From Trigonopsis variabilis (Eukaryota > Ascomycota > Trigonopsidomycetes > Trigonopsidales > Trigonopsidaceae), in contig PPXM03000012.1 in assembly GCA_003707065.3 (NCBI GenBank), forward strand, positions 1 through 64,000: a stretch of DNA of 64,000 nucleotides, given 5' to 3'. The notes under the pieces are model-generated. The model was given only the letters and a program-made list of their open reading frames with translations, was not told the DNA's origin and did not search any database. This document shows positions 1-33,679 of this stretch, piece after piece. Each line of letters starts with the position of its first letter. Position 1 is the first letter of the stretch. Made by a program: the position numbers and the translations under genes.

Positions 1-1319
1 ACCTGCCGCCAAAGGGTTTATGTGACCTTACAGCTGGACGCCATGGGATCGGAACGTGTTCCCGCTAGAGTAATTAATTGACCAATAGAATAAGTTCGCA
101 CATTAGTGAACGGTTTAAACGATGGTGATAGCAAGATTTGGGCTCGCATTCATCAGTTATTATTAGCTCGTCCATCATGAGCTTTCATGTCCAACTCTTT
201 TGCCTCTCTAATCCATCCATCTTCTAGGACGATCTGTCCCAGCGGCGATAAGCTGAGTTTCCCTGGGTTGCCAGTTTGACGCTTGTGTTGACCATCTTCT
301 CTATTCTCTATACCATTTTCGGACTCTTCCCTCGTTTTTTGACTGTTCTCCAAAGTGCAGTCGTTGATAGAAACCATAATTTAGGTGATAAGCTGAAGCG
401 TGCCTCTGCCCGAAGAGGAAATTTTAAACGGCAGCACTTGTACCATCTTTCCAATCTACGAGGCGGGCTCATATATTCTGGGAGAAATAAGCTGGGGAGA
501 AATAAGTTACCAGAAGAACAAGACGGTGAGGCATTTCGTCCGTCATCCTGAGGAATTATGTCGCGAGTTACAGTATGTGTTTTTACACGCTTCTATCCTT
601 GCAGGCTCTTTCGCAAAATACTAACTAGACCTTGCTATGGCAGACACTTGTCAAGAGCTGTTTCGTTTATTACGTTTTATTACATAAGCAAGACTCATCA
701 GTGACCTGTCTCTAGGTGGGGGCGGCGTCGACCCGATTCTTATCATCGGGATTACACGCCTCAAATCGCAGGCATTAGATACCAACGCCTGAGAAATGAA
801 TCTGAGGGTCCGTTCTCATTATCAACTATATCTTTAATACTCTACTATCACAGTCCCATATACTGACTAGGATTCTCCTCCTGCATCAAAAAAATATCCG
901 TCCGACTACAGAAGCTTATATCCAAGTCCAAAACAGCATAAAATCTAACGAGTCCAAAAAGATATAGCTAAGCAAAGAAGCAATTACAGGACGACACTTC
1001 GGGGATCGCGGATACCAATCCGCGACTTAGAGCGCTAGAAGAGTTTTTCAACCCTTCAAGAAACGAAAAAGATGGAAAGATTAACGACTTAACCTGGTCC
1101 AATGTACTTAGAGTCATCGTAGTTTCAGTTATGATGTCTCTCCGTTTTTATATCCATGAGTTTTCTTACACTCTCGAGAATAAGAGTTCCGCGTTGTTTG
1201 AAAGAATCAATGGGCAATAGTTTTGCAGATTATTTGCTGTGATGTTAGGGTAACAAAAATCCATTCACTATATTTATATGAGTGCATCTGCCTTGACTGT
1301 AGATCTTTTTGCTACGTTA
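1..1319. other. No gene recognised
   Basis: Short open frames on both strands overlap one another and resemble no family I know. Base composition is AT-rich with frequent stops. I see no tRNA, no long ORF and no clear intron pattern here. Confidence 0.5.
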
Positions 1320-1430
1320 ACTTCTAGAACCGGCATCACTCATAAGGGCCAGTATGCAACATCAAAATATTACAAACCTGGTATGGTCCCGTTAGTGTTA
1401 GAACACAAACGAAGAGGCCAGTAGTTTACA
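1320..1430 (-). repeat. Diverged copy of the repeat also seen at 3620 and 29050
   Basis: This stretch aligns by eye with 3620-3720: GGCCAGTATG against GGCCAATATG, and CAAACGAAGAGGCCAGTA shared except for one or two bases. A third, worse copy lies near 29050-29160 in the same orientation. Read on the minus strand the copies give a YWPL-containing peptide (FDVAYWPL here, HDVTYWPL at 3.6 kb), so they are probably remains of one gene family rather than of a transposon. The family itself is not identified; the kinase relic at 4.0 kb lies nearby. Confidence 0.5.
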
Positions 1431-2364
1431 ACAATTGAAAAGTGTCGGTGAAGATAGTATTGACATAAGCATCTAGTTCTGCAGTATGGTGAGAACACAT
1501 GTGTCTGTACAACGTCCTTATGACCCTAAGAATCTTAAAAACGAATAATGGAATTCCCGAGGCCTATGATGTAACTTTAGACAAGAATAGTCAAGGATTC
1601 CGAATTGAACAACAAGATGTGAGTGAACTTGAGAAATACTTCCATTGAACCAAACTCGATGGGTTGATGAACCCTCCGAGACCCGTTCATCTCTTGGATA
1701 AGTCGCTTCAGAAAACAGCCTGACTCCAGAGGGCCCAAGGATGTCGGAAACTGAAGAGGTGTCAAGAAGGACAATAAACCTTCTAAAGTAAGTCAATCAG
1801 GGCTCGCGCGGCCTGGAAACTTTTCTAGCGCTATACAGATATTCTAGATCAGCCTTACCACATACGCTGAAGATACTCATAAGTCTTCGACCCTCCAATT
1901 GTGATGCCCTTATCTGGAGTTGGAAATGATGCCCTGAGCTTAAGTCACACTGGGAAATAGAGAAATAATAGTGGTTATTTGTATGTCAGAGATGGGGTCC
2001 TGATGCAGTCCTTAATAGAGATTGATACTTGGGACCTAATCCCAATAACAAAAAACGTGCAGGTTGTCAAAAACAACTAGGTCTTCGAGAGGAAATTTTA
2101 TCAAGATGTCAAGCTCGTATAAGCAGCTTTGTTACCAGAGGATTTACAGAAGTTAAGGGAGTAGACTTGAAGAGACATTTTCACAGGTTGTCCAATTTGA
2201 GTCTATCCGGTTAATCATCCGGGTCATCTGCTGCCAGAAGCCGGCTGGCATCTTGATCAAAGGGTGTCGATTCAGCTCTTCTACAAGGAGACTTGGAGGA
2301 AATAATAACCTGAGGGGATTCCTAACATGGATGTGAGAGCTACAAAAAAAATCGCTACACAATG
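1431..2364. other. No gene recognised
   Basis: A 92-residue minus-strand frame at 1518-1796 and shorter frames elsewhere show no domain or signal I recognise. It may continue the decayed gene fragment to its left. Confidence 0.4.
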
Positions 2365-2369
2365 AGATT

Positions 2370-2614
2370 GCGTTGCAGAAGTCTGCTTTACGCCTCCTAT
2401 TTGTGGTGACGCGCCACGACCAACAGATACTCGACGTGGCGACCCGTCATAAGAGTATGGCTGCGTGCCGCAGTAAGGGCTATATAAGGAGTAGTCATGT
2501 ATGCAGTCAATTCAAGTTAGATTTGGTTTACGATCTGTACTTCTTTAGCAGTTTTTGCCTTTCGGTTTGATCAAGGTCTGGGAAGGCCTTTCCGACCCAC
2601 CAGGAGTTGCAACA
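2370..2614 (+). mobile_element. Solo LTR-like fossil
   Basis: The segment ends in GTTGCAACA and carries a TATATAAGGAGTA box followed by a CAAGTTAGAT block. The same order of blocks recurs at about 8659-8991. The layout (short edge, TATA-like box, 3' CAACA) is that of a long terminal repeat of a retrotransposon. No internal element adjoins it and I found no matching target-site duplication, so it is an old, eroded solo LTR. The family is not assignable. Confidence 0.4.
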
Positions 2615-3236
2615 TATTCGATATTTTGCTCAGCAAAGAAAAACAAAGAACAACAAGAGCACATAATTGATACTCGGCCAAGAGCGACAAATAGAGGATC
2701 GCAGTTGCTAGGTCAAAAGAAAGGCTGACATATGATATCGACGAGCTCAAAGAACAGCATAGAATATCAGTGAATCCGAAGCACCCTCTTACTTAAACAG
2801 GGAGAATTCGCAGAGAACATGATCCCAAGCGATGACGGCTAAAGGAACTGAGTCGAGAGAGCCTGAGATAGAGCTTACTGAGGTCGGTCTCACAGAACTC
2901 AATCTTAAGATTTCAAACCCAGCCTTATAGTCATAATATATTCCTAGGCCAATAACAATGAGACAACAACAATGTCAGAAACGTTTGCCCGGAGTGCTGT
3001 TTTATAAATTTCCACCACTCATTTAAAACTACTCGTATTGGCCAGAGAGCCTCACTGGCGAGATGTGAAAGTGATGAAATATTTGGAATAAGAGGAAAAA
3101 AAAACTTCGATCGGAGTTTGCCCAAGCAGATTCCGTAGTTCCGACTTCTCTGGTTTCGATAACAGTGAAAATCTCAAGATCGAGTTCTGCTTGAAAAACA
3201 GCTTTCTGGGCAAACTTATCTGGCATTGTTTTTTTT
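2615..3236. other. No gene recognised
   Basis: Several 60-65 residue minus-strand frames overlap each other around 2931-3240. None has recognisable content. The stretch may be decayed coding sequence joined to the palindrome that follows. Confidence 0.4.
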
Positions 3237-12281: not shown

Positions 12282-13862
12282 ATGTCTGAAGAAAAGGTCA
12301 ACAACACTCCAGAGATCAACTCGGTCGAAATAGTCCTTGGAGAACATAGAGATGTCCTTAACACAAGCAAGGAGGACCTTGGGATGACAGATGAGGCCTG
12401 GAATCTATATACGGAAAGTCTTAAGATGTCGGAAGACTACTTGAACTCTTGCTCTTCTAAAGTTCGTTGGCGGTTGGATCTGCTTATGCTTCCTATGGTG
12501 AGTCTTGGAATAAGGAAGATACTGACTTGATAGATGTTGTTCACCTATGTTATTCAATATTTAGATAAGCAGACCTTGAACTACTCCAATGCCTATGGTC
12601 TCCAAACTGATCTTGGTATGTCAAGTGCTGATTATTCCTGGGTCGCTTCTGCTGCCAACTTTGGAATTCTGGCCGCAGCCCTACCAATGAATCTCATTCT
12701 TCACCGATATCCAGCAGGTCGAACTGTGTCGATTCTCGTGTTCATCTGGGGTGTCATATGTATGGCAACAACAGGTGTGAAGTCTTTTGGAGGCTTGTTT
12801 GCTGCCCGCTTTTTTCTCGGAGCAACTGAGGCTGGAATTGCTCCTGCTTTCATGGCCCTGACCCAGATGTTCTACACCAGAAGGGAGCAGCCACTACGCA
12901 TGTGTCTATGGATGGGAACTAATGGACCATCGATCGTTCTTGGAGGACTCATTGGCTGGGGGTCTGGTGTGGCTGATAGCTCTCTGAAATCGTGGCAGTT
13001 GGTCTATTTGATCATCGGCACCATTACAATCGCATGGTCTTTTGTCATCTTTTTCTTGATGCCAGATACCCCTGTCAATGCAAGGATGTTAAATGAGGAA
13101 CAGAAAATCGTTGCGGTTTGGAGAGTTGCTCATAACAAGACCGGAGTCAAGAATAAGCATTTCAAATTGGAACAGGTCAAGGAGATCTTCTATGATCCCA
13201 AGTGCTATTGCTTCTTCATTATTCAGTTTGCTTTAGGCCTCGTCAATGGAGGCGCTTCCAACTTCACCTCTACGCTTTTCAAAGCTTTTGGCTTCACAGG
13301 TATTAAAGCTACCCTGCTTAACATGGTCGGTGGATCACTCGAGTTCTTTTCATGTGTCATGTCTGGCATTGTCACATATTTTGTTCCTAATACCGTCTGC
13401 ATTCTCATGGCTGTTGGCGCTGTTCCTGGACTTGTGGGTATGATTGGCATCCATACGTTTCCCCTAGACCATAAATGGTCACTTGCTGCGTGTACATGGC
13501 TGCAATACTGGTTTGGAGCTTCCATCATTTTGGCTTGGTCAATCCCAAACACTGATATTGCGGGACAAACCAAACGATCAGTGACTGTTGGAATATCATT
13601 CATCCTCTACGCGGCTGGTAACATTATCTCCCCGCATTTCTTCAACACTGCCGATTCACCAAGATTTGCGCCAGCATTCAAAGGTCTTACGGTTGCTTAC
13701 TGCCTCATCATTGGGTTTGCACTTATTCTTTTAGCCTATATGTGGTCCGTTAATAGATATCGAGATAGAAAAGGATACGGAGTAAATGACAGAGAAGATA
13801 TCCTACTTGGTTTCGCTGATACGACCGACTTCAGCAACAAGGAATTCCGCTATGTACTTTGA
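12282..13862 (+). CDS. MFS permease, allantoate permease (Dal5) family
   Basis: Two exons, 12282-12497 and 13862-terminating 12534-13862, encode 514 residues. The intron (12498-12533) is 36 nt, GTGAGT...TAG with a CTGAC branch 9 nt from the acceptor. It lies between codons, in RWRLDLLMLPM|MLFTYVIQYLDK. The protein has the hydrophilic N-terminus and 12 hydrophobic segments of the anion:cation symporter/Dal5 family. Landmarks are QYLDKQTLNYSNAYGLQTDL, RFFLGATEAGIAPA in helix 4, YTRREQPLRM in the loop after it, and the MPDTP-nA loop after helix 6. Relatives import allantoate, nicotinate, biotin or other carboxylates; the substrate cannot be assigned. Two GATAA sites and a TATA box precede the gene. 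It is a paralogue of the permease at 53.6-55.1 kb. Confidence 0.9.
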
Positions 13863-15505: not shown

Positions 15506-18500
15506 TTAGAGAAGGACAGCAGCTAATATGGTCGAAATAAAGAGTGTCGAGAACAGAGTCAACGATCTGCTTCCGACAGTTCTGGTCGCTCCTGAATACG
15601 CGGTGCTTGAAGGGTTTGATATTAAAGTACTCGTGTCTATAAAAGTTAGCAGCAGATCTATGTAGAATGAAACTTACTTGAAACAGCAGAGCTTAGTGCA
15701 GTTGCTATTGTATTCAGATAAAGAGACGTAGATTGAGACCCTTGAGTGTCTTCACTGACGGTGTTTGTTGCACCAGAGCCATTATTTTGGGACCCAGAAG
15801 TACCTTCATTGTTTTCAGAACCCGACCCATTTCCTGTACTCTCTTGGCCAGAGCCAGAGCTGGAGCCCGAAACATTACCACTGTTCTCAGAAGCGGATTC
15901 ACTTCCAGTGTTGCCAGAACCGGAGCCAGAGTTGGAACCTGAGCCATTGCCATTGTTGCCTGAACCGGAGCCAGAACCAGAGGCTGACGTGGAAGCTGAG
16001 CCACTGCCATTGTTTCCTGAGGCTGAGCCCGAAGTGGAACCTGATCCACTGCCATTGTTGCCTGAACCGGAACCTGATCCATTGCCATTGTTGCCAGAGC
16101 CCGAGCCAGAGTTGGAACCTGAGCCATTGCCATTGTTGCCTGAACCGGAGCCAGAACCAGAGGCTGACGTGGAAGCTGAGCCACTGCCATTGTTTCCTGA
16201 GGCTGAGCCCGAAGTGGAACCTGATCCACTGCCATTGTTGCCTGAACCGGAACCTGATCCATTGCCATTGTTGCCAGAGCCCGAGCCAGAGTTGGAACCT
16301 GAGCCATTGCCATTGTTGCCTGAACCGGAGCCAGAACCAGAGGCTGACGTGGAAGCTGAGCCACTGCCATTGTTTCCTGAGGCTGAGCCCGAAGTGGAAC
16401 CTGATCCACTGCCATTGTTGCCTGAACCGGAACCTGATCCACTTCCACTGTTGCCAGAGCCCGAGCCAGAGTTGGAACCTGAGCCACTTCCATTGTTGCC
16501 TGAACCGGAGCCAGAGCCAGAATTGGAACCTGAGCCACTTCCATTGTTGCCTGAACCGGAGCCAGAACCAGAGGCTGAAGTGGAAGCTGAGCCACTGCCA
16601 CTGTTTCCTGAACCACTTCCGTTATTGCCTGAACCTGAGCCACTGCCACTGTTGCCTGAGGCTGAGCCAGAGTTGGAACCTGAGCCATTGCCATTGTTGC
16701 CTGAACCGGAGCCAGAACTAGAGGCTGACGTGGAACCTGATCCACTGCCATTGTTGCCTGAACCGGAGCCAGAGCCAGAGCCAGAATTGGAACCTGAGCC
16801 ATTGCCATTGTTGCCTGAACCGGAGCCAGAACCAGAGGCTGAAGTGGAAGCTGAGCCACTGCCACTGTTTCCTGAACCACTTCCGTTATTGCCTGAACCT
16901 GAGCCACTGCCACTGTTGCCTGAGGCTGAGCCAGAGTTGGAACCTGAGCCATTGCCATTGTTGCCTGAACCGGAGCCAGAACTAGAGGCTGACGTGGAAC
17001 CTGATCCACTGCCATTGTTGCCTGAACCGGAGCCAGAGCCAGAGCCAGAATTGGAACCTGAGCCATTGCCATTGTTGCCTGAACCGGAGCCAGAACCAGA
17101 GGCTGAAGTGGAAGCTGAGCCACTGCCACTGTTTCCTGAACCACTTCCGTTATTGCCTGAACCTGAGCCACTTCCACTGTTGCCAGAGCCCGAGCCGGAA
17201 CTGGAACCTGATCCACTTCCACTATTGCCTGAGCCAGAGTTGGAACCTGAGCCACTTCCACTGTTGCCTGAGCCCGAACCAGAGTTGGAACCTGAGCCAC
17301 TTCCACTGTTGCCTGAACCGGAGCCAGAGTTAGAACCTGATCCACTGCCATTGTTGCCTGAGCCCGAACCAGAATTGGAACCTGATCCACTGCCATTGTT
17401 TCCTGAGCCACTTCCGTTATTGCCTGAACCTGAGCCACTTCCACTATTGCCTGAACCGGAGCCAGAGTTGGAACCTGAGCCACTTCCATTGTTGCCTGAA
17501 CCGGAGCCAGAGCCAGAGCCAGAATTGGAACCTGATCCATTGCCATTGTTGCCAGAGCCCGAGCCAGAGTTGGAACCTGATCCACTTCCACTGTTGCCAG
17601 AGCCCGAGCCAGAGTTGGAACCTGAGCCACTTCCACTGTTGCCTGAACCGGAGCCAGAGTTGGAACCTGATCCACTGCCATTGTTGCCTGAGCCCGAACC
17701 AGAATTGGAACCTGATCCACTGCCATTGTTTCCTGAGCCACTTCCGTTATTGCCTGAACCTGAGCCACTTCCACTATTGCCTGAACCGGAGCCAGAGTTG
17801 GAACCTGAGCCACTTCCATTGTTGCCTGAACCGGAGCCAGAGCCAGAGCCAGAATTGGAACCTGATCCATTGCCATTGTTGCCAGAGCCCGAGCCAGAGT
17901 TGGAACCTGATCCACTTCCACTGTTGCCAGAGCCCGAGCCAGAGTTGGAACCTGAGCCACTTCCACTGTTGCCTGAACCGGAGCCAGAGTTGGAACCTGA
18001 TCCACTGCCATTGTTGCCTGAGCCCGAACCAGAATTGGAACCTGATCCACTGCCATTGTTTCCTGAGCCACTTCCGTTATTGCCTGAACCTGAGCCACTG
18101 CCACTATTACCAGAACTAGCTCCAGTGCTAGTCGAACTTGCACTTTCTCTGACGGAAGTAGCTGGTCCAGAGCTAGTAGTCGAGCTGCCTTCGAAAGAAG
18201 CGGAAAAGGAAACTGGAGATAATGAGGAAGAAACGGAAGATTTAATAGAAGGCGCTGAAAAGGTCGATTCAGGATATTGCCCAGTATTAGAAGGACCATA
18301 ATTTGAAGACGACGCGCTATTTGGTTTAACCACATTTGTAGATTGAGAAAACAAATGAGACTGCGTAGAACTAGCATAATAAGAAAGAGAACCACCAGAA
18401 ATAGAAATCGTAGGTGTACTCGATATGAACGAGCCCTGCGAAACTGTACCGATAGCGGATCCACCATTGAAATCAGATGCAGAAGAATATGATTCTACAG

Positions 18501-21500
18501 ATACTCCTTGTCTGCTTTGAGAAGCAAAGTAGGAGGAAGAATGCTCACCTTGGACAGCGCTAGACCATGAAGACGTAGTAAATGTTGAAGAAGATATTCC
18601 AGAAGCGCCTTGACTTGAAACTGAGGCACTTAAGAGTAGACCTGATTGACTATTTGAACCAGTAGAAATAGCGTTTTGACCCATAGAAGACAGTGTACTA
18701 CCTTTTACCTTGGAGGAAATCATGGATCTGAAATTCGAAGGGAGAAGGGAGCTAGCAGCAGTATTAGAGGGCTGTGATGGGGCGCTTGCTATAACTGAGC
18801 CAGAGAGTAGAGAAGCACTAGGTACTCCCGAATTAGAAGCTGTTCCTAAGGAAGCAAAAGACTGGTCGGTGCCAGAAGACTGGAGTGAAGCAGATGGTGA
18901 CGCAGATAACTGGGTGACGCTAGATATGCCAGCATTAGAAAGGACTCCTGATGAAGTAGAAGATTTGCCCACACTGTAAGAAGATTGTGCAGACAGAATA
19001 GAGGACGTTGTTCCGATCGTATGCGCTGATTGTATCGAGATAGTTCGTATAGCCGAAGCAGATAATTGAGTCACACTAGATGTACCAGCTGTGGCACTGT
19101 AAGATTGTGCGGACACAGTAGACGATGCGGTTCCAACGCTTTGTCTTGATGAAACAGTAGTAGAGCTCGCGCTGCCACTTGCGGTGGAACAGACACTAAA
19201 AGGAAGTGAGTTACCGCATCCAGAAAGAAGTGCGTCAAGGTCGTTGATGATGTAAGGAACTGCGCCAGTCAAAAACTCCAGTCCATTAGGATCAGCAAGA
19301 CAAGAGGCAAGGTTAGTTTGGAATGACGACGTCGAAGAGCAACAGTCAGTAAAACCAAGTCCCAAAGTACCAAGAGTAGAGGATACAAGACATAGAGGTG
19401 CCTCCGCTAGAACAATTGCACACGATTCAATCTCTCCAGAAGCTTGGCTAGGAATCAAGCTATTACACTTAGTTACCACGGGGTATACCACCGCTTGGAG
19501 CACATCCGAAGTCAACGTTCCAAGGATACCACAGCTTCCGCAGTTTCCAAGCATTAGCTGAGCGCCACCCGTAGGATCACAACATTGGCTGTAGAAATCG
19601 CTTTCAGAAACAGTGAGCCCGACCAATGGGACTTGCAGTTCACAAGAAGTGTAATCAGTAGTGAGGGTGAGAATATCTAGGATTAGCCGTTATCAGTTAC
19701 AAGTAACGTACCACATTGATCGCATAGGTTGTCTGTTTGGGCAACACATGTTCCAGAAGGCGAAGTTGATGCAAGCGACAGTGACGCAGAACTCGTCGTC
19801 GTTGAAGCAGCAACAGATTGGCCAGCACTATAAGATGCTAAGGACGAACTCGGTACACCAACAGACTGGCCAGCGCCAGAGGACTGGAGTGAAGCAGATC
19901 GTATAGCAGACGCAGATAATTGGGTGACGCTAGATACACCAGCATTAGAAAGAACTCCTGTTGAAGTAGAAGATTTGCCCGCACTGTAAGAAAACTGTGT
20001 GGACAGAATAGACGATGCGGTTCCAATGCTTTGTGCCGATTGTATCGAGGTACTTGGTGCAGTAGAAACAGGTAATTGGGTCACACTAGATATGCCGGCT
20101 GACTTACCTGCACTGTAGGATTGTGCGGAAGCAGTCGACGATGCGGTTCCAACGCTTTGTCTTGATGAAACAGTAGTAGAGCTCGCGCTTCCACTTGCGG
20201 TGGAACAGACATTAAAAGGAAGTGAGTTGCCGCATCCAGAAAGAAGTGCGTCAAGGTCGTTGATGATGTAAGGAACTGCGCCAGTCAAAAACTCCAGTCC
20301 ATTAGGATCAGCGAGACAAGAGGCAAGGTTAGTTTGGAATGACGACGTCGAAGAGCAACAATCGGTAAAACCAAGTCCCAAAGTACCAAGAGTAGTAGAT
20401 ACAAGACATAGAGGTGCCTCCGCAAGAACAATTGCACACGATTCAATCTCTCCAGAAGCTTGGCTAGGAATCAAGCTATTACACTTAGTTACCACGGGGT
20501 ATACCACCGCTTGGAGCACATCCGAAGTCAACGTTCCAAGGATGCCACAGCTTCCGCAGTTTCCAAGCATTAGCTGAGCGCCACCCGTAGGATCACAACA
20601 TTGGTCATAGAAGGCACTTTCCGAGACAGTGAGCCCGACCAATGGGACTTGAAGCTCACAAGAAGTGTAATCAGTAGTGAGAGTGAGGATATCTGTGGTT
20701 AGTTTAGGCCAATGTAAGTAACATACCACATTGGTCGCACAAGTTATTTGTTTGGGCAACACATGTTCCAGAAGGCGAAGTTGATGCAAGCGACATGGAA
20801 GCAGAACTCGTCGTCTTTGAAGCGGCAGCGGATTGGCCAGCACCGGAAGATCCTGATGAAGGAGATGTTACAGCAGAAGCAGATGATTGGGTCACACTAG
20901 ATATGCCGGCAGACTTACCGGCACTGTAGGATTGTGCGGAAGCAGTCGACGATGCGGTTCGAACGCTCTGTGCTGATGAAACGATAGTAGAGCTCGCGCT
21001 TCCACTTGCGGTGGAACAGACACTAAAAGGAAGTGAGTTGCCGCATCCAGAAAGAAGTGCGTCAAGGTCGTTGATGATGTAAGGAACTGCGCCAGTCAAA
21101 AACTCCAGTCCATTAGGATCAGCAAGACAAGAGGCAAGGTTAGTTTGGAATGACGACGTCGAAGAGCAACAGTCAGTAAAACCAAGTCCCAAAGTACCAA
21201 GAGTAGAGGATACAAGACATAGAGGTGCCTCCGCTAGAACAATTGCACACGATTCAATCTCTCCAGAAGCTTGGCTAGGAATCAAGCTATTACACTTAGT
21301 TACCACGGGGTATACCACCGCTTGGAGCACATCCGAAGTCAACGTTCCAAGGATGCCACAGCTTCCGCAGTTTCCAAGCATTAGCTGAGCGCCACCCGTA
21401 GGATCACAACATTGGTCATAGAAGGCACTTTCCGAGACAGTGAGCCCGACCAATGGGACTTGAAGCTCACAAGAAGTGTAATCAGTAGTGAGAGTGAGGA

Positions 21501-23357
21501 TATCTGTGGTTAGTTTAGGCCAATGTAAGTAACATACCACATTGGTCGCACAAGTTATTTGTTTGGGCAACACATGTTCCAGAAGGCGAAGTTGATGCAA
21601 GCGACATGGAAGCAGAACTCGTCGTCTTTGAAGCGGCAGCGGATTGGCCAGCACCAGATGATGCTAACGGAGCGGTTGATACAGCAAGAGATTGGCCAGC
21701 ACCGGAAGATCCTGATGAAGGAGATGTTACAGCGGAAGCAGATGACTGGGTCACACTAGATGTACCAGCCGTGGCACTGTAAGATAGAGCGGACACAATA
21801 GACGATGCGGTTCCAACGCTTTGTCTTGATGAAACAGTAGTAGAGCTCGCGCTTCCACTTGCGGTGGAACAGACACTAAAAGGAAGTGAGTTACCGCATC
21901 CAGAAAGAAGTGCGTCAAGGTCATTGATGATGTAAGGAACTGCGCCAGTCAAAAACTCCAGTCCATTAGGATCAGCGAGACAAGAGGCAAGGTTAGTTTG
22001 GAATGACGACGTCGAAGAGCAACAATCGGTAAAACCAAGTCCCAAAGTACCAAGAGTAGTAGATACAAGACATAGAGGTGCCTCCGCAAGAACAATTGCA
22101 CACGATTCAATCTCTCCAGAAGCTTGGCTAGGAATCAAGCTATTACACTTAGTTACCACGGGGTATACCACCGCTTGGAGCACATCCGAAGTCAACGTTC
22201 CAAGGATGCCACAGCTTCCGCAGTTTCCAAGCATTAGCTGAGCGCCACCCGTAGGATCACAACATTGGTCATAGAAGGCACTATCTGATACAGTGAGGCC
22301 GACCAGTGGGACTTGAAGTTCACAAGAAGTGTAATCAGTAGTGAGAGTAAGGATATCTGTCGTTAGTTTAGGCCATTGTAAGTAACATACCACATTGGTC
22401 GCACAAGTTGTTTGTTTGGGCGACACAGGTCCCTGAGGGCAAAGCAGATTTAACAGTTGAAGCGGCCACGGATACGCCAGCACTGGAAACAGCTAAAGAG
22501 GCAGCCGATACAGCTGATTGGCCAACACTAGAAGTTTGTTGTGAAGCAGATGGTATAACCGAGAAAGACAACGGAGCCACGCTAGACGCGCCAGCATTAG
22601 ATAGGGCTCCTGACGGAGCAGCAGAGTTACTGGCACTATAAGCTGACTGCGTGGCAATAATAGACGATGCGGTTCGAACGCTCTGTGCTGATGAAACGAT
22701 AGTAGAGCTCGCGCTTCCGCTTGCAGTAGGGCAGACACTAAAAGGAAGTGAGTCGCCACAACCAGAGAGAAGTGCGTCAAGGTCGTTGATGATGTATGGA
22801 ACTGCGCCAGTCAAAAACTCCAGTCCATTAGGATCAGCGAGACAAGAGGCAAGGTTAGTTTGGAATGACGACGTCGAAGAGCAACAATCGGTAAAACCAA
22901 GTCCCAAAGTACCAAGAGTAGTAGATACAAGACATAGAGGTGCCTCCGCAAGAACAATTGCACACGATTCAATCTCTCCAGAAGCTTGGCTAGGAATCAA
23001 GCTATTACACTTAGTTACCACGGGGTATACCACCGCTTGGAGCACATCCGAAGTCAACGTTCCAAGGACGCCACAGCTTCCGCAGTTTCCAAGCATTAGC
23101 TGAGCGCCACCCGTAGGATCACAACATTGGTCATAGAAGGCACTGTCTGATACAGTGAGGCCGACCAGTGGGACTTGAAGCTCACAAGAAGTGTAATCAG
23201 TAGTGAGAGTAAGGATATCTGGGATTAGCTGTCACTATTTGTAAATGAACGCACTGCATTGGTCACAAAGATTGGTTGTTTCCGGAACACAACTTTGAGC
23301 ATTGGAGATGCCAGCACTCAAGAGAGATATCAGTTCCAAATAATAGATGAATCTCAT
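15506..23357 (-). CDS. Giant GPI-anchored surface protein, five-repeat Cys-rich adhesin-like
   Basis: Seven exons join in frame to 2545 residues: 23255-23357, 22391-23218, 21538-22356, 20727-21503, 19712-20692, 15678-19676, 15506-15636. Intron sizes are 36, 34, 34, 34, 35 and 41 nt, and every internal splice is phase 1. Exon 1 encodes a signal peptide ([20 protein letters not shown]). Exons 2-6 each carry one copy of a domain of about 180 residues with 16 cysteines. It runs from C-x6-NLCDQC across the intron, through [19 protein letters not shown] and GFTDCCSS, to LSGCG-LPF-VC. Each copy is followed by a Ser/Thr/Ala-rich stalk. Exon 6 adds about 745 residues of Gly/Ser/Asn repeat (about 1690-2435). 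Exon 7 supplies a hydrophobic tail ending [10 protein letters not shown] with small residues (YSGAT) before it, a GPI-anchor signal. I do not recognise the Cys-rich domain; a wall or adhesion role is inferred from architecture. Confidence 0.85.
15921..16460 (-). repeat. 180-bp tandem repeat, three copies
   Basis: Within the Gly/Ser/Asn region, blocks starting at 15961, 16141 and 16321 are identical over at least 60 bp. The 180-bp period (60 codons) holds for three full units. The peptide unit includes [12 protein letters not shown]. Confidence 0.85.
16561..17165 (-). repeat. 264-bp tandem repeat, about 2.3 copies
   Basis: The block GCCAGAACCAGAGGCTGAAG begins at 16561, 16825 and 17089, exactly 264 bp (88 codons) apart. 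The match between the first two units extends across the whole period. The third diverges after about 75 bp. Confidence 0.8.
17270..18100 (-). repeat. 330-bp tandem repeat, about 2.5 copies
   Basis: TCCACTGCCATTGTTGCCTG followed by the same flank occurs at 17341, 17671 and 18001, a 330-bp (110-codon) period. The underlying short unit is Gly-Ser-Gly-Ser/Asn. It is distinct from the 180- and 264-bp arrays next to it. Confidence 0.8.
19150..23230 (-). repeat. Five tandem exon-domain units (about 0.8-1.0 kb each)
   Basis: Units begin near 23218, 22356, 21503, 20692 and 19676. The roughly 530-bp domain-coding part is nearly identical in all five, while the Ser/Thr stalk between units varies in length. 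The introns at 21504-21537 and 20693-20726 are identical in sequence. The one at 22357-22390 differs from them by two bases. The fifth (19677-19711) is diverged. Confidence 0.9.
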
Positions 23358-31348: not shown

Positions 31349-32638
31349 TCAAGAGTAGATATATCCTCTGTTAAACGGATACTGTGACTGGCATCCTCTC
31401 AGGCCAGTAGCCGTTTCCCCTGTCTCGAGGTTTCCGTTCGGCTTGGTCGCCAGAACTTGGTACAGATAAACCCACCTCTGCTCAAAACCGACCGCACAGC
31501 CGGCCAAGTATACTCTATAAGCACGAAGAACTTTATCTCCGACCATTTGACGTGCTTTTTCTAGATTCTTTTCCAGACGATCCGACCATTCCCACAGAGT
31601 CCTGCCATAATGAGGACGGAGATCTTCCACATCGACTACCTCAAAACCACATTCGGCCATAAACCTGAGAGCAAGAGAGATATGAATCAATTCACCTCCT
31701 GGAAATATATATTTATCAATAAATGATCCCATATTGGCCCCGAGCGACTCATTGGTGAGTTTTGAGCTGGTGATGCCATGATTCAGAAGCATACCCCCTG
31801 GCTTTAGAAGCGAGTATAAAGTACTGAAATAAGTATCCATCATAGCTAAACCGACGTGCTCAAACATGCCGACCGAGGCGATCTTATCATATCTTCTGTC
31901 GCCAAGCTCGCGATAGTCACATAAAAAGACCTCGACGCGACCCTGTAGGCCCTTTTCTTCGATTAAATTAGTCATGTGCTTGAATTGAGACTTGGATACA
32001 GTTATACCTGTAGCAAAGACCTTGTATTTCTCAGCTGCCCACATTACCAGTGCTCCCCAGCCGGCGCCAACGTCGAGAAAGTGTTCGCCGGGCTTGAGGA
32101 GAAGCTTACGGCAGATCAAATCTAGCTTTGCGTCTTGTGCTTGAGCTAGAGAATATTCCTTCTTGAAGAAATACGCACAAGAGTATAATTTTTTAGGATC
32201 CAGCCAGAGGGAGAAAAAATCGTCCGAGATGTCGTAATGAAACTGAACATGTCTAGTGCCTCGGAATATGGAGTGATTATACCAAGAATACACATATCTA
32301 AGGCAATTGAATATTCCCAATCGTATAACCAGCCTCGTCATCCACGAAGGAGACTCGCTGACAGGGTCATTGGCAGTGACCTCAAGAAGAGATGTACCAG
32401 TCCGCATCAAGTCTCTCATATCCCCATCGATATCGACCTCACCTTCGACATAGTCACTTGCAATACTGCCAATGTTTCCGAAGGCCACGTCAGCTAGAAC
32501 TTTGTACTTGTGGATCCAAACCACCACGTGAGCGTCATCAACGCTACATCCCAATCGTCGCTTGTCTGGTAAAATGACGGCAGCTGGAACAGACAATTGG
32601 TTCAATAAACTGTCTAAATGCCTCTGTTGCGAAAACAT
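31349..32638 (-). CDS. Cyclopropane-fatty-acyl-phospholipid synthase-like SAM methyltransferase
   Basis: A 429-residue intronless protein of the CFA/mycolic-acid cyclopropane synthase family. Members transfer a methylene or methyl group from S-adenosylmethionine to double bonds of membrane lipid acyl chains. The small N-terminal lipid-binding domain is present (DYVEGEVDIDGD at 62-73). HYDISDDFFSLWLDP (134-148) and YSCAYF (152-157) precede the SAM-binding FLDVGAGWGAL (187-197). They are followed by ATGITVSKSQ, DYRELG (241-246), VGMFEHVG (256-263), LKPGGMLLNHGIT and FIDKYIFPGGEL (306-317). Length is close to that of bacterial CFA synthases with a short extra tail. No introns interrupt it, although most multi-domain genes here are spliced. 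The family is patchy in fungi, so bacterial ancestry is plausible. No neighbour suggests a shared pathway. Confidence 0.9.
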   Translation of the reverse strand: MFSQQRHLDSLLNQLSVPAAVILPDKRRLGCSVDDAHVVVWIHKYKVLADVAFGNIGSIASDYVEGEVDIDGDMRDLMRTGTSLLEVTANDPVSESPSWMTRLVIRLGIFNCLRYVYSWYNHSIFRGTRHVQFHYDISDDFFSLWLDPKKLYSCAYFFKKEYSLAQAQDAKLDLICRKLLLKPGEHFLDVGAGWGALVMWAAEKYKVFATGITVSKSQFKHMTNLIEEKGLQGRVEVFLCDYRELGDRRYDKIASVGMFEHVGLAMMDTYFSTLYSLLKPGGMLLNHGITSSKLTNESLGANMGSFIDKYIFPGGELIHISLALRFMAECGFEVVDVEDLRPHYGRTLWEWSDRLEKNLEKARQMVGDKVLRAYRVYLAGCAVGFEQRWVYLYQVLATKPNGNLETGETATGLRGCQSQYPFNRGYIYS

Positions 32639-33679
32639 TAAGGGAAGGGTTCTAGCAAGCGTGTTTTAGGCGCTTGCGGCTTAGTCAACCAGATTAAGCT
32701 TTCTTCCTATCAGCTAGATAGGATATGATCGGGGAGCTAAGTGGTTCTACGCTACCCGAAGCCATATTCTTTTGTCCTTGCATGTCTGAAGTCTTTGCCA
32801 CCATGTTCCTCCCTTCAAGTCAGATAAGGAGCCATTCCAGTAGGATGCCTTCATGTCCTGAAAAAAATACCTGACTAAGATGTATTAAATAATAGTTTTC
32901 CTATCACTTGGTGTTCTAAATCATCTGGATGCTATCATTGTGCCGGACGGCGTTGGTTAACAGTTGCGGCCGGCTAAGGCACGGCACGTATAAGATGGCT
33001 CAGCGCCTGGCTCCACATTGTTTATCCATTGTTCATCGCGTGCTTTGGCACCCAGATTGTGACCATTCTTCCATCGTAGCACCTTTTAAAAAGTCTAGTC
33101 AGGATGAAACAATATCCTTCTATACCAGAGTCTTTTCGAATTAGTTAAAGTGTGTTTCTCCCCATTGTTGTGGACCTGCAGCAGCCAGGGAGATGGCTCT
33201 GATAGGCGGTGCTACAGATATCTTTTTCTACTACAGAAAAGACGCTAGTCGAACCTACACGCCAATCTACGATTGCCAATATATAGACCTTCTAATGGCA
33301 TTTGTAGCTAGTTTATCTGATGACAATGACTTTAGTCTCTGGCCATCCAATAAAGATGTCCAAACTCTCCCGTTTAGTAGACACCGGCCAAAAAGGATTG
33401 AGGCCCACGAAATAAGCGCGGTGTGAAGCGAGTGATGCCTTGCTCCCATATACAACTCAAATATAATCTTCATTATTCATCTGGGCAACTTATGTTTTAA
33501 TATAGAGGTTAAGAACCCATAATTATGTGAAAAAACCAATGAGCCTATCATATAGCGTCTTGAATTGCAAGAACTGTTAGAAACCTATCTTTGACTAAAA
33601 AAACAGACTCTCTTCCAGCAAAATCCGATCATGATAGAGTCGGAAGATGGAATGGTATACAAGGAATGCTACCATTTGC
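32639..33679. other. Upstream of methyltransferase, no gene
   Basis: The promoter of the minus-strand methyltransferase must lie at the left end. A 77-residue plus frame and a 68-residue minus frame at 33193-33473 overlap and are not convincing. Confidence 0.4.

Follow-up and report, generated by a model that had tools for sequence, protein, structure and literature searches.

Analysis of 64,000 nucleotides of Trigonopsis variabilis DNA (contig PPXM03000012.1, positions 1 to 64,000; hereafter the window) revealed one intact gene model that occupies 23357 to 15506 of the minus strand and has seven exons, a coding sequence of 7638 nt (divisible by three) and 2545 codons without interruption, giving a protein of 2545 amino acids. 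On its sequence features we think it reasonably likely that this giant gene encodes a secreted, glycosylphosphatidylinositol (GPI)-anchored wall protein, in which five copies of a 16-cysteine domain, carried on a long stalk, would act as a multivalent adhesive or coat-forming head and would have arisen by tandem duplication. A first-pass annotation had proposed a single giant surface-protein gene at this position, built from symmetrical phase 1-1 exons; its coordinates and its exon and intron sizes hold, a sixth intron of 41 nt having been absent from its list, and its reading as a single giant gene for a probable surface protein is supported. The parts of the model, in transcript order, are as follows.

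23255..23357, minus strand: exon 1, 103 nt; start codon, a 20-residue signal-peptide-like sequence (by eye), then Cys1-Cys3 of domain 1 (13 residues)
23219..23254, minus strand: intron 1, 36 nt, phase 1; TAG in frame when retained
22391..23218, minus strand: exon 2 (unit 1), 828 nt; domain 1 Cys4-16, Ser/Thr linker, domain 2 Cys1-3
22357..22390, minus strand: intron 2, 34 nt, phase 1
21538..22356, minus strand: exon 3 (unit 2), 819 nt
21504..21537, minus strand: intron 3, 34 nt, phase 1; same sequence as intron 4
20727..21503, minus strand: exon 4 (unit 3), 777 nt
20693..20726, minus strand: intron 4, 34 nt, phase 1
19712..20692, minus strand: exon 5 (unit 4), 981 nt
19677..19711, minus strand: intron 5, 35 nt, phase 1
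15678..19676, minus strand: exon 6 (holds unit 5), 3999 nt, phase 1-1; domain 5 Cys4-16, a long Ser/Thr-rich region and a Ser/Gly/Asn stalk
15900..18116, minus strand: tandem-repeat stalk within exon 6, residues 1692-2420; nested periods including 180, 264 and 330 bp, multiples of three that keep the frame
15637..15677, minus strand: intron 6, 41 nt, phase 1
15506..15636, minus strand: exon 7, 131 nt; GPI-type C-terminus (polar spacer and 18-residue end, anchor site judged by eye), stop codon

All six predicted introns are in phase 1, as had been claimed for the boundaries of the internal exons, and in transcript order they measure 36, 34, 34, 34, 35 and 41 nt. Each starts with a GT donor and ends in AG, and a branch-like motif, CTAAC or CTAAT, lies near the acceptor. 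Exons 2 to 6 are each a multiple of three in length, so that skipping any one of them would keep the frame, in agreement with the in-frame modularity proposed earlier. Five separate genes were rejected on sequence grounds: the starts of exons 2 to 6 have no signal peptide of their own (by eye), and retention of any single intron brings in a stop codon in frame inside that intron (six of six).

A strict consensus intron scan of the whole window returned eight candidates, the six of the giant gene and two others. One of the latter is a 36-nt candidate at 12498-12533 on the plus strand, just ahead of a 442-aa MFS transporter frame and similar in size to the giant-gene introns; the other, of 55 nt, is weak. 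Elsewhere in the genome, five candidates overlap at an ARP2-like locus, and one of them, of 53 nt and in phase 1, carries GTATGT and CTAAC signals. These further short candidates suggest that short introns are probably not peculiar to the giant gene.

The predicted protein shows the Ser/Thr-rich, repetitive, glycosylatable middle expected of a GPI-anchored fungal wall protein. Its N-terminus is signal-peptide-like as judged by eye, and its C-terminus is GPI-type, with a polar spacer followed by a hydrophobic stretch (omega site by eye); the four most hydrophobic 15-residue windows of the whole protein start at residues 2528-2531 of 2545. Between these ends, linkers 1 to 4 (101, 98, 84 and 152 aa) contain 39-51% Ser+Thr and zero Cys, the region after domain 5 contains 43% Ser+Thr, and the 729-aa stalk (residues 1692-2420) consists of 40% Ser, 39% Gly and 17% Asn. 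The whole protein contains 80 Cys, 1 Trp, 29 Lys+Arg, 97 Asp+Glu and 39 N-X-S/T sequons, and its mature region has an isoelectric point of 4.05. Such an architecture points to what is probably a GPI-anchored wall mannoprotein, adhesive or coat-forming. An 851-aa open frame rich in Pro, Glu and Leu runs antisense through the stalk (15746-18301, plus strand); as a gene it was rejected, and we read it instead as a by-product of the codon repeats of the stalk.

The putative head comprises five domain copies, of which the other four are 96-99% identical to copy 1 over 162 aa. Each repeat has three cysteines 5' of an intron (C-x7-C-x2-C) and thirteen 3' of it, and the spacing, given as residues between cysteines and measured on one composite copy (domains 2 to 5 each count 16), is C7C2C11C19CC12C2C21C14C9C15CC12C27C8C, including two CC pairs. 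The domain is hydrophobic and acidic (grand average of hydropathy 0.55, isoelectric point 4.05), with one Lys and no Arg in 175 residues. CC-x12-C occurs in it twice; an origin of the domain by internal duplication is nonetheless not supported, since the two halves align locally with a score of 38 that 264 of 3000 free shuffles also attained, as did 425 of 3000 with cysteines fixed.

The first-pass annotation did not recognise this domain, and it likewise went unmatched in the libraries that we searched. A Pfam scan of the domain and of exon 6, run to E 10 with HMMER filters that drop most matches above E ~0.1, gave no family and no known ligand-binding domain. PHROGs held no family matching the domain, and the sole match among PDB sequences, to an antibody chain at E 0.35, we put down to chance. 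Pattern matches to the domain in bacterial and archaeal contigs (27) and in viral contigs (one) all went unconfirmed. A search of the organism's own genome (11.35 Mb, 15 contigs) gave five matches at E up to 1, all inside the giant gene, and no paralogue. The domain is new relative to Pfam, PHROGs and PDB sequences only, the searched sets including no fungal protein collection.

We favour an adhesive or coat protein over two other roles at the cell surface. The hydrophobic, acidic domain with its two CC pairs and the very long glycosylatable stalk would suit a structural part of the wall, or one that confers surface hydrophobicity much as a hydrophobin does, as opposed to a specific adhesin. 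However, Pfam gave no hydrophobin match, and the 19 and 15 residues before the CC pairs are longer than the spacing familiar from hydrophobins; we regard this role as unlikely. A hemophore-like or other small-molecule relay, in which tandem cysteine-rich domains on a GPI anchor would bind a ligand and pass it on in the manner of Candida Csa1, appears distinctly improbable, given that Pfam, scanned to E 10, returned neither CFEM nor any other family for the domain and that the CFEM pattern has eight cysteines, whereas there are sixteen here, with two CC pairs. The layout does resemble that of Csa1, with several near-identical cysteine-rich domains in one wall protein. In the available part of PMC9635878, the tandem CFEM domains of Csa1 are assigned a likely role in heme acquisition, by inference only, and its deletion is described as without detected phenotype.

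Comparison of exon and domain boundaries bears on how the array was built. The earlier equation of one exon with one repeat unit stands for the period of the DNA and fails for the domain, for introns 1 to 5 each fall between Cys3 and Cys4 of a domain, after CDQC and then D or N. Because the cysteine total is even and the linkers are free of cysteine, we assign Cys1-3 to the domain that follows. Reckoned in this way, an exon is a circular permutation of the unit: it runs from Cys4-Cys16 of one domain through the linker to Cys1-Cys3 of the one after, and would hold no self-contained domain.

These boundaries are central to true exon shuffling, by which recombination inside introns would have made the gene a fungal counterpart of metazoan class 1-1 modules. 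The diagnostic for it, in the part of a review available to us (PMC8001218), is symmetrical phase together with agreement of exon and domain boundaries. The same intron phase does occur at both ends of every module (six of six introns in phase 1), five consecutive phase 1-1 exons lie in a probable extracellular protein, and the first phase-1 intron is near the signal peptide, a position that the same review gives for class 1-1 modules. In contrast, introns 1 to 5 lie inside the cysteine framework, cutting between Cys3 and Cys4 off the domain boundaries, and the units were copied inside a single gene rather than carried as domains from one gene to another, all five matches to the module in the own-genome search being in the giant gene. 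In addition, introns of 34-36 nt would present a far smaller recombination target than more than 550 nt of near-identical exon. Exon shuffling of this kind is, in our judgment, very unlikely. The uniform phase is probably for the most part inherited from one ancestral intron; if introns 1 to 5 do descend from one, their shared phase counts only once, and the one independent instance is that of intron 6.

The units themselves bear on tandem duplication, the route that we prefer. Pairwise BLAST aligns the first 556-560 nt of unit 1 with each of the other four units at 92.5-96.3% and with no gaps, upholding their reported near-identity. In a core of 486 nt, the ten pairings of units show 7-31 nucleotide differences each, with synonymous divergence (dS) of 0.042-0.227, nonsynonymous divergence (dN) of 0.0055-0.0195 and dN/dS of 0.05-0.13 in all ten. 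These low ratios indicate that the copies are under purifying selection and are kept functional; together with the 2545 open codons and the stops in all six introns when retained, they argue that the array is not due to chance. Units as long and similar as these could be added or scrambled by an assembler. Such an artefact is highly improbable, however, in view of the differences in every one of the ten pairs, the differing lengths of linkers 1 to 4 (84-152 aa) and the preservation of frame and splice sites at every junction.

Relationships among the units change along their length. Over the 556 columns that align gap-free in all five units, the four-gamete test gives 72 incompatible pairs among 136 pairs of informative sites; in the core 18 of 55 pairs are incompatible, all 18 through two sites. 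Columns 8-59 set units 1 and 2 against the rest, columns 269-380 set units 1, 2 and 4 against units 3 and 5, columns 520-543 set units 1 and 3 against the rest, and two single sites group units 1, 3 and 4. Unit 3 is identical to unit 4 over the first 268 nt and to unit 5 over 314 nt starting at position 150. The longest run without differences among the five units in the core, 118 nt, was reached by 45 of 20,000 random placements (277 of 20,000 with third positions only), and for seven of the ten pairs fewer than 100 of 10,000 random placements reached the longest identical run in the 556 columns. The units read as mosaics of one another, which gene conversion or unequal crossing-over would explain best. 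Variation in the number of units between strains, raised as a possibility in the first-pass annotation, is plausible.

Introns 2 to 4 were copied together with the exons, as introns 3 and 4 are identical, intron 2 differs from both at only 2 of 34 positions, and a genome search with the intron 3/4 sequence, allowing up to three mismatches, found just three places, all in the giant gene (introns 2 to 4). The same search led us to reject an introner-type mobile intron for that intron, introns 1, 5 and 6 not having been searched.

We propose that the gene probably goes back to an ancestor with one domain and a lone phase-1 intron a short way past the signal peptide, and that a segment comprising Cys1-3, the intron, Cys4-16 and the linker would have been duplicated in tandem and in frame. 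The breakpoints would most simply lie in coding sequence (linker, domain start) and not in introns. The long Ser/Gly/Asn stalk would then present the five domains, on their Ser/Thr-rich linkers, at the cell surface.

Several observations weigh against this adhesive or coat-forming, tandemly duplicated protein. No ligand-binding family is recognised in it, and the case for adhesion is one of architecture only. In the libraries searched, the domain has no homologue from another species, its conservation being measured between copies only, and two AlphaFold2 runs gave unusable models (mean predicted local distance difference test scores of 34.1 and 36.2) that lend no support to a fold or disulphide pattern. 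Clustering of differences is not seen in three of the ten unit pairs, for which 651-1018 of 10,000 random placements reach the longest run. Finally, beyond the splice signals introns 1 and 5 show only weak similarity, whether to each other or to introns 2 to 4: the score is reached by 39 to 344 of 1000 shuffles in which those signals were kept fixed, and intron 6, which is presumably unrelated, does as well against intron 1 (33 of 1000). Given this weak similarity, the common descent of introns 1 to 5 is argued mainly by their identical position and phase.

The window is the start of contig C12, and the first part of it looks like a subtelomeric-like duplication. The first 3 kb (1-3000) match nine other places in the genome, including C2 1-242 (99%), C2 4958-6249 (89%) and C5 6203-7460 (79%), near contig starts; the remaining six matches, in C1, C2, C3, C7, C12 and C13, are short, at 71-80%. 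Inspection by eye of the first 1500 bases showed no telomere repeat. A partial EF-2 of this genome has its best PDB score with yeast eEF2 (1n0u and 6gq1, 1347.9 bits), pointing to what is probably an ascomycete of the budding-yeast type. Further into the window, a 438-aa frame at 31352-32665 on the minus strand matches Mycolic acid cyclopropane synthetase (CMAS) at E 1.3e-92. The CMAS family is mainly bacterial, and horizontal transfer into the fungus is possible for this frame.

Among known systems, the FLO and ALS GPI-anchored adhesins of yeasts have in common with the predicted protein a start like a signal peptide, a functional part at the N-terminus, repeats rich in Ser/Thr, a GPI-type end and repeat arrays that recombine, an architecture described in part in PMC3899988. 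The same paper reports that repeat-tract length in FLO1 and ALS correlates with adhesion, longer FLO1 tracts giving stronger adhesion. In contrast to the single N-terminal binding domain of FLO and ALS proteins, the giant gene has five tandem cysteine-rich domains, its repeats are separated by introns, and there is no Pfam family in its domain or exon 6. Candida Csa1-type tandem-CFEM proteins also combine several near-identical cysteine-rich domains in one surface protein; the domain described here, however, is not CFEM by profile, has 16 cysteines against the eight usually counted in CFEM, and contains an intron in each copy.

As far as the accessible text of PMC6162428 goes, none of the 31 tandem-repeat regions analysed in intron-containing genes of Candida albicans is interrupted by an intron, against which a repeat array split by introns is unusual for a surface protein of the yeast type. 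In the open PMC literature, we found no match for symmetric phase 1-1 exon tandem repeats in fungi, for fungal exon shuffling with GPI proteins or for intron-containing cysteine-rich GPI arrays in yeast, and, judged by title, no paper on fungal tandem exon duplication dealt with a fungal surface protein.

Symmetrical phase 1-1 exon modules are presented as a metazoan speciality in the consulted portion of PMC8001218, which asks why exon shuffling is restricted to Metazoa. Like the metazoan class 1-1 modular proteins, the giant gene has symmetrical phase 1-1 exons, a probable extracellular product and a first phase-1 intron near the signal peptide; it differs from them in the intron inside the domain, the duplication within one gene and the fungal host. 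A full fungal counterpart of these proteins, with a new 16-cysteine fold on symmetrical exons and a unit number that changes both in DNA, by unequal crossing-over, and in RNA, by skipping of exons 2 to 6, seems rather improbable to us; if true, one gene could yield surface proteins with differing numbers of heads. The unmatched 16-cysteine domain is a good target for structure determination, and the duplication route, with breakpoints in coding sequence or in introns, is directly testable in related strains. In sum, the five near-identical phase 1-1 units of this fungal gene, with their purifying selection, suggest that the metazoan exon pattern can also result from plain tandem duplication around a single intron close to the signal peptide.

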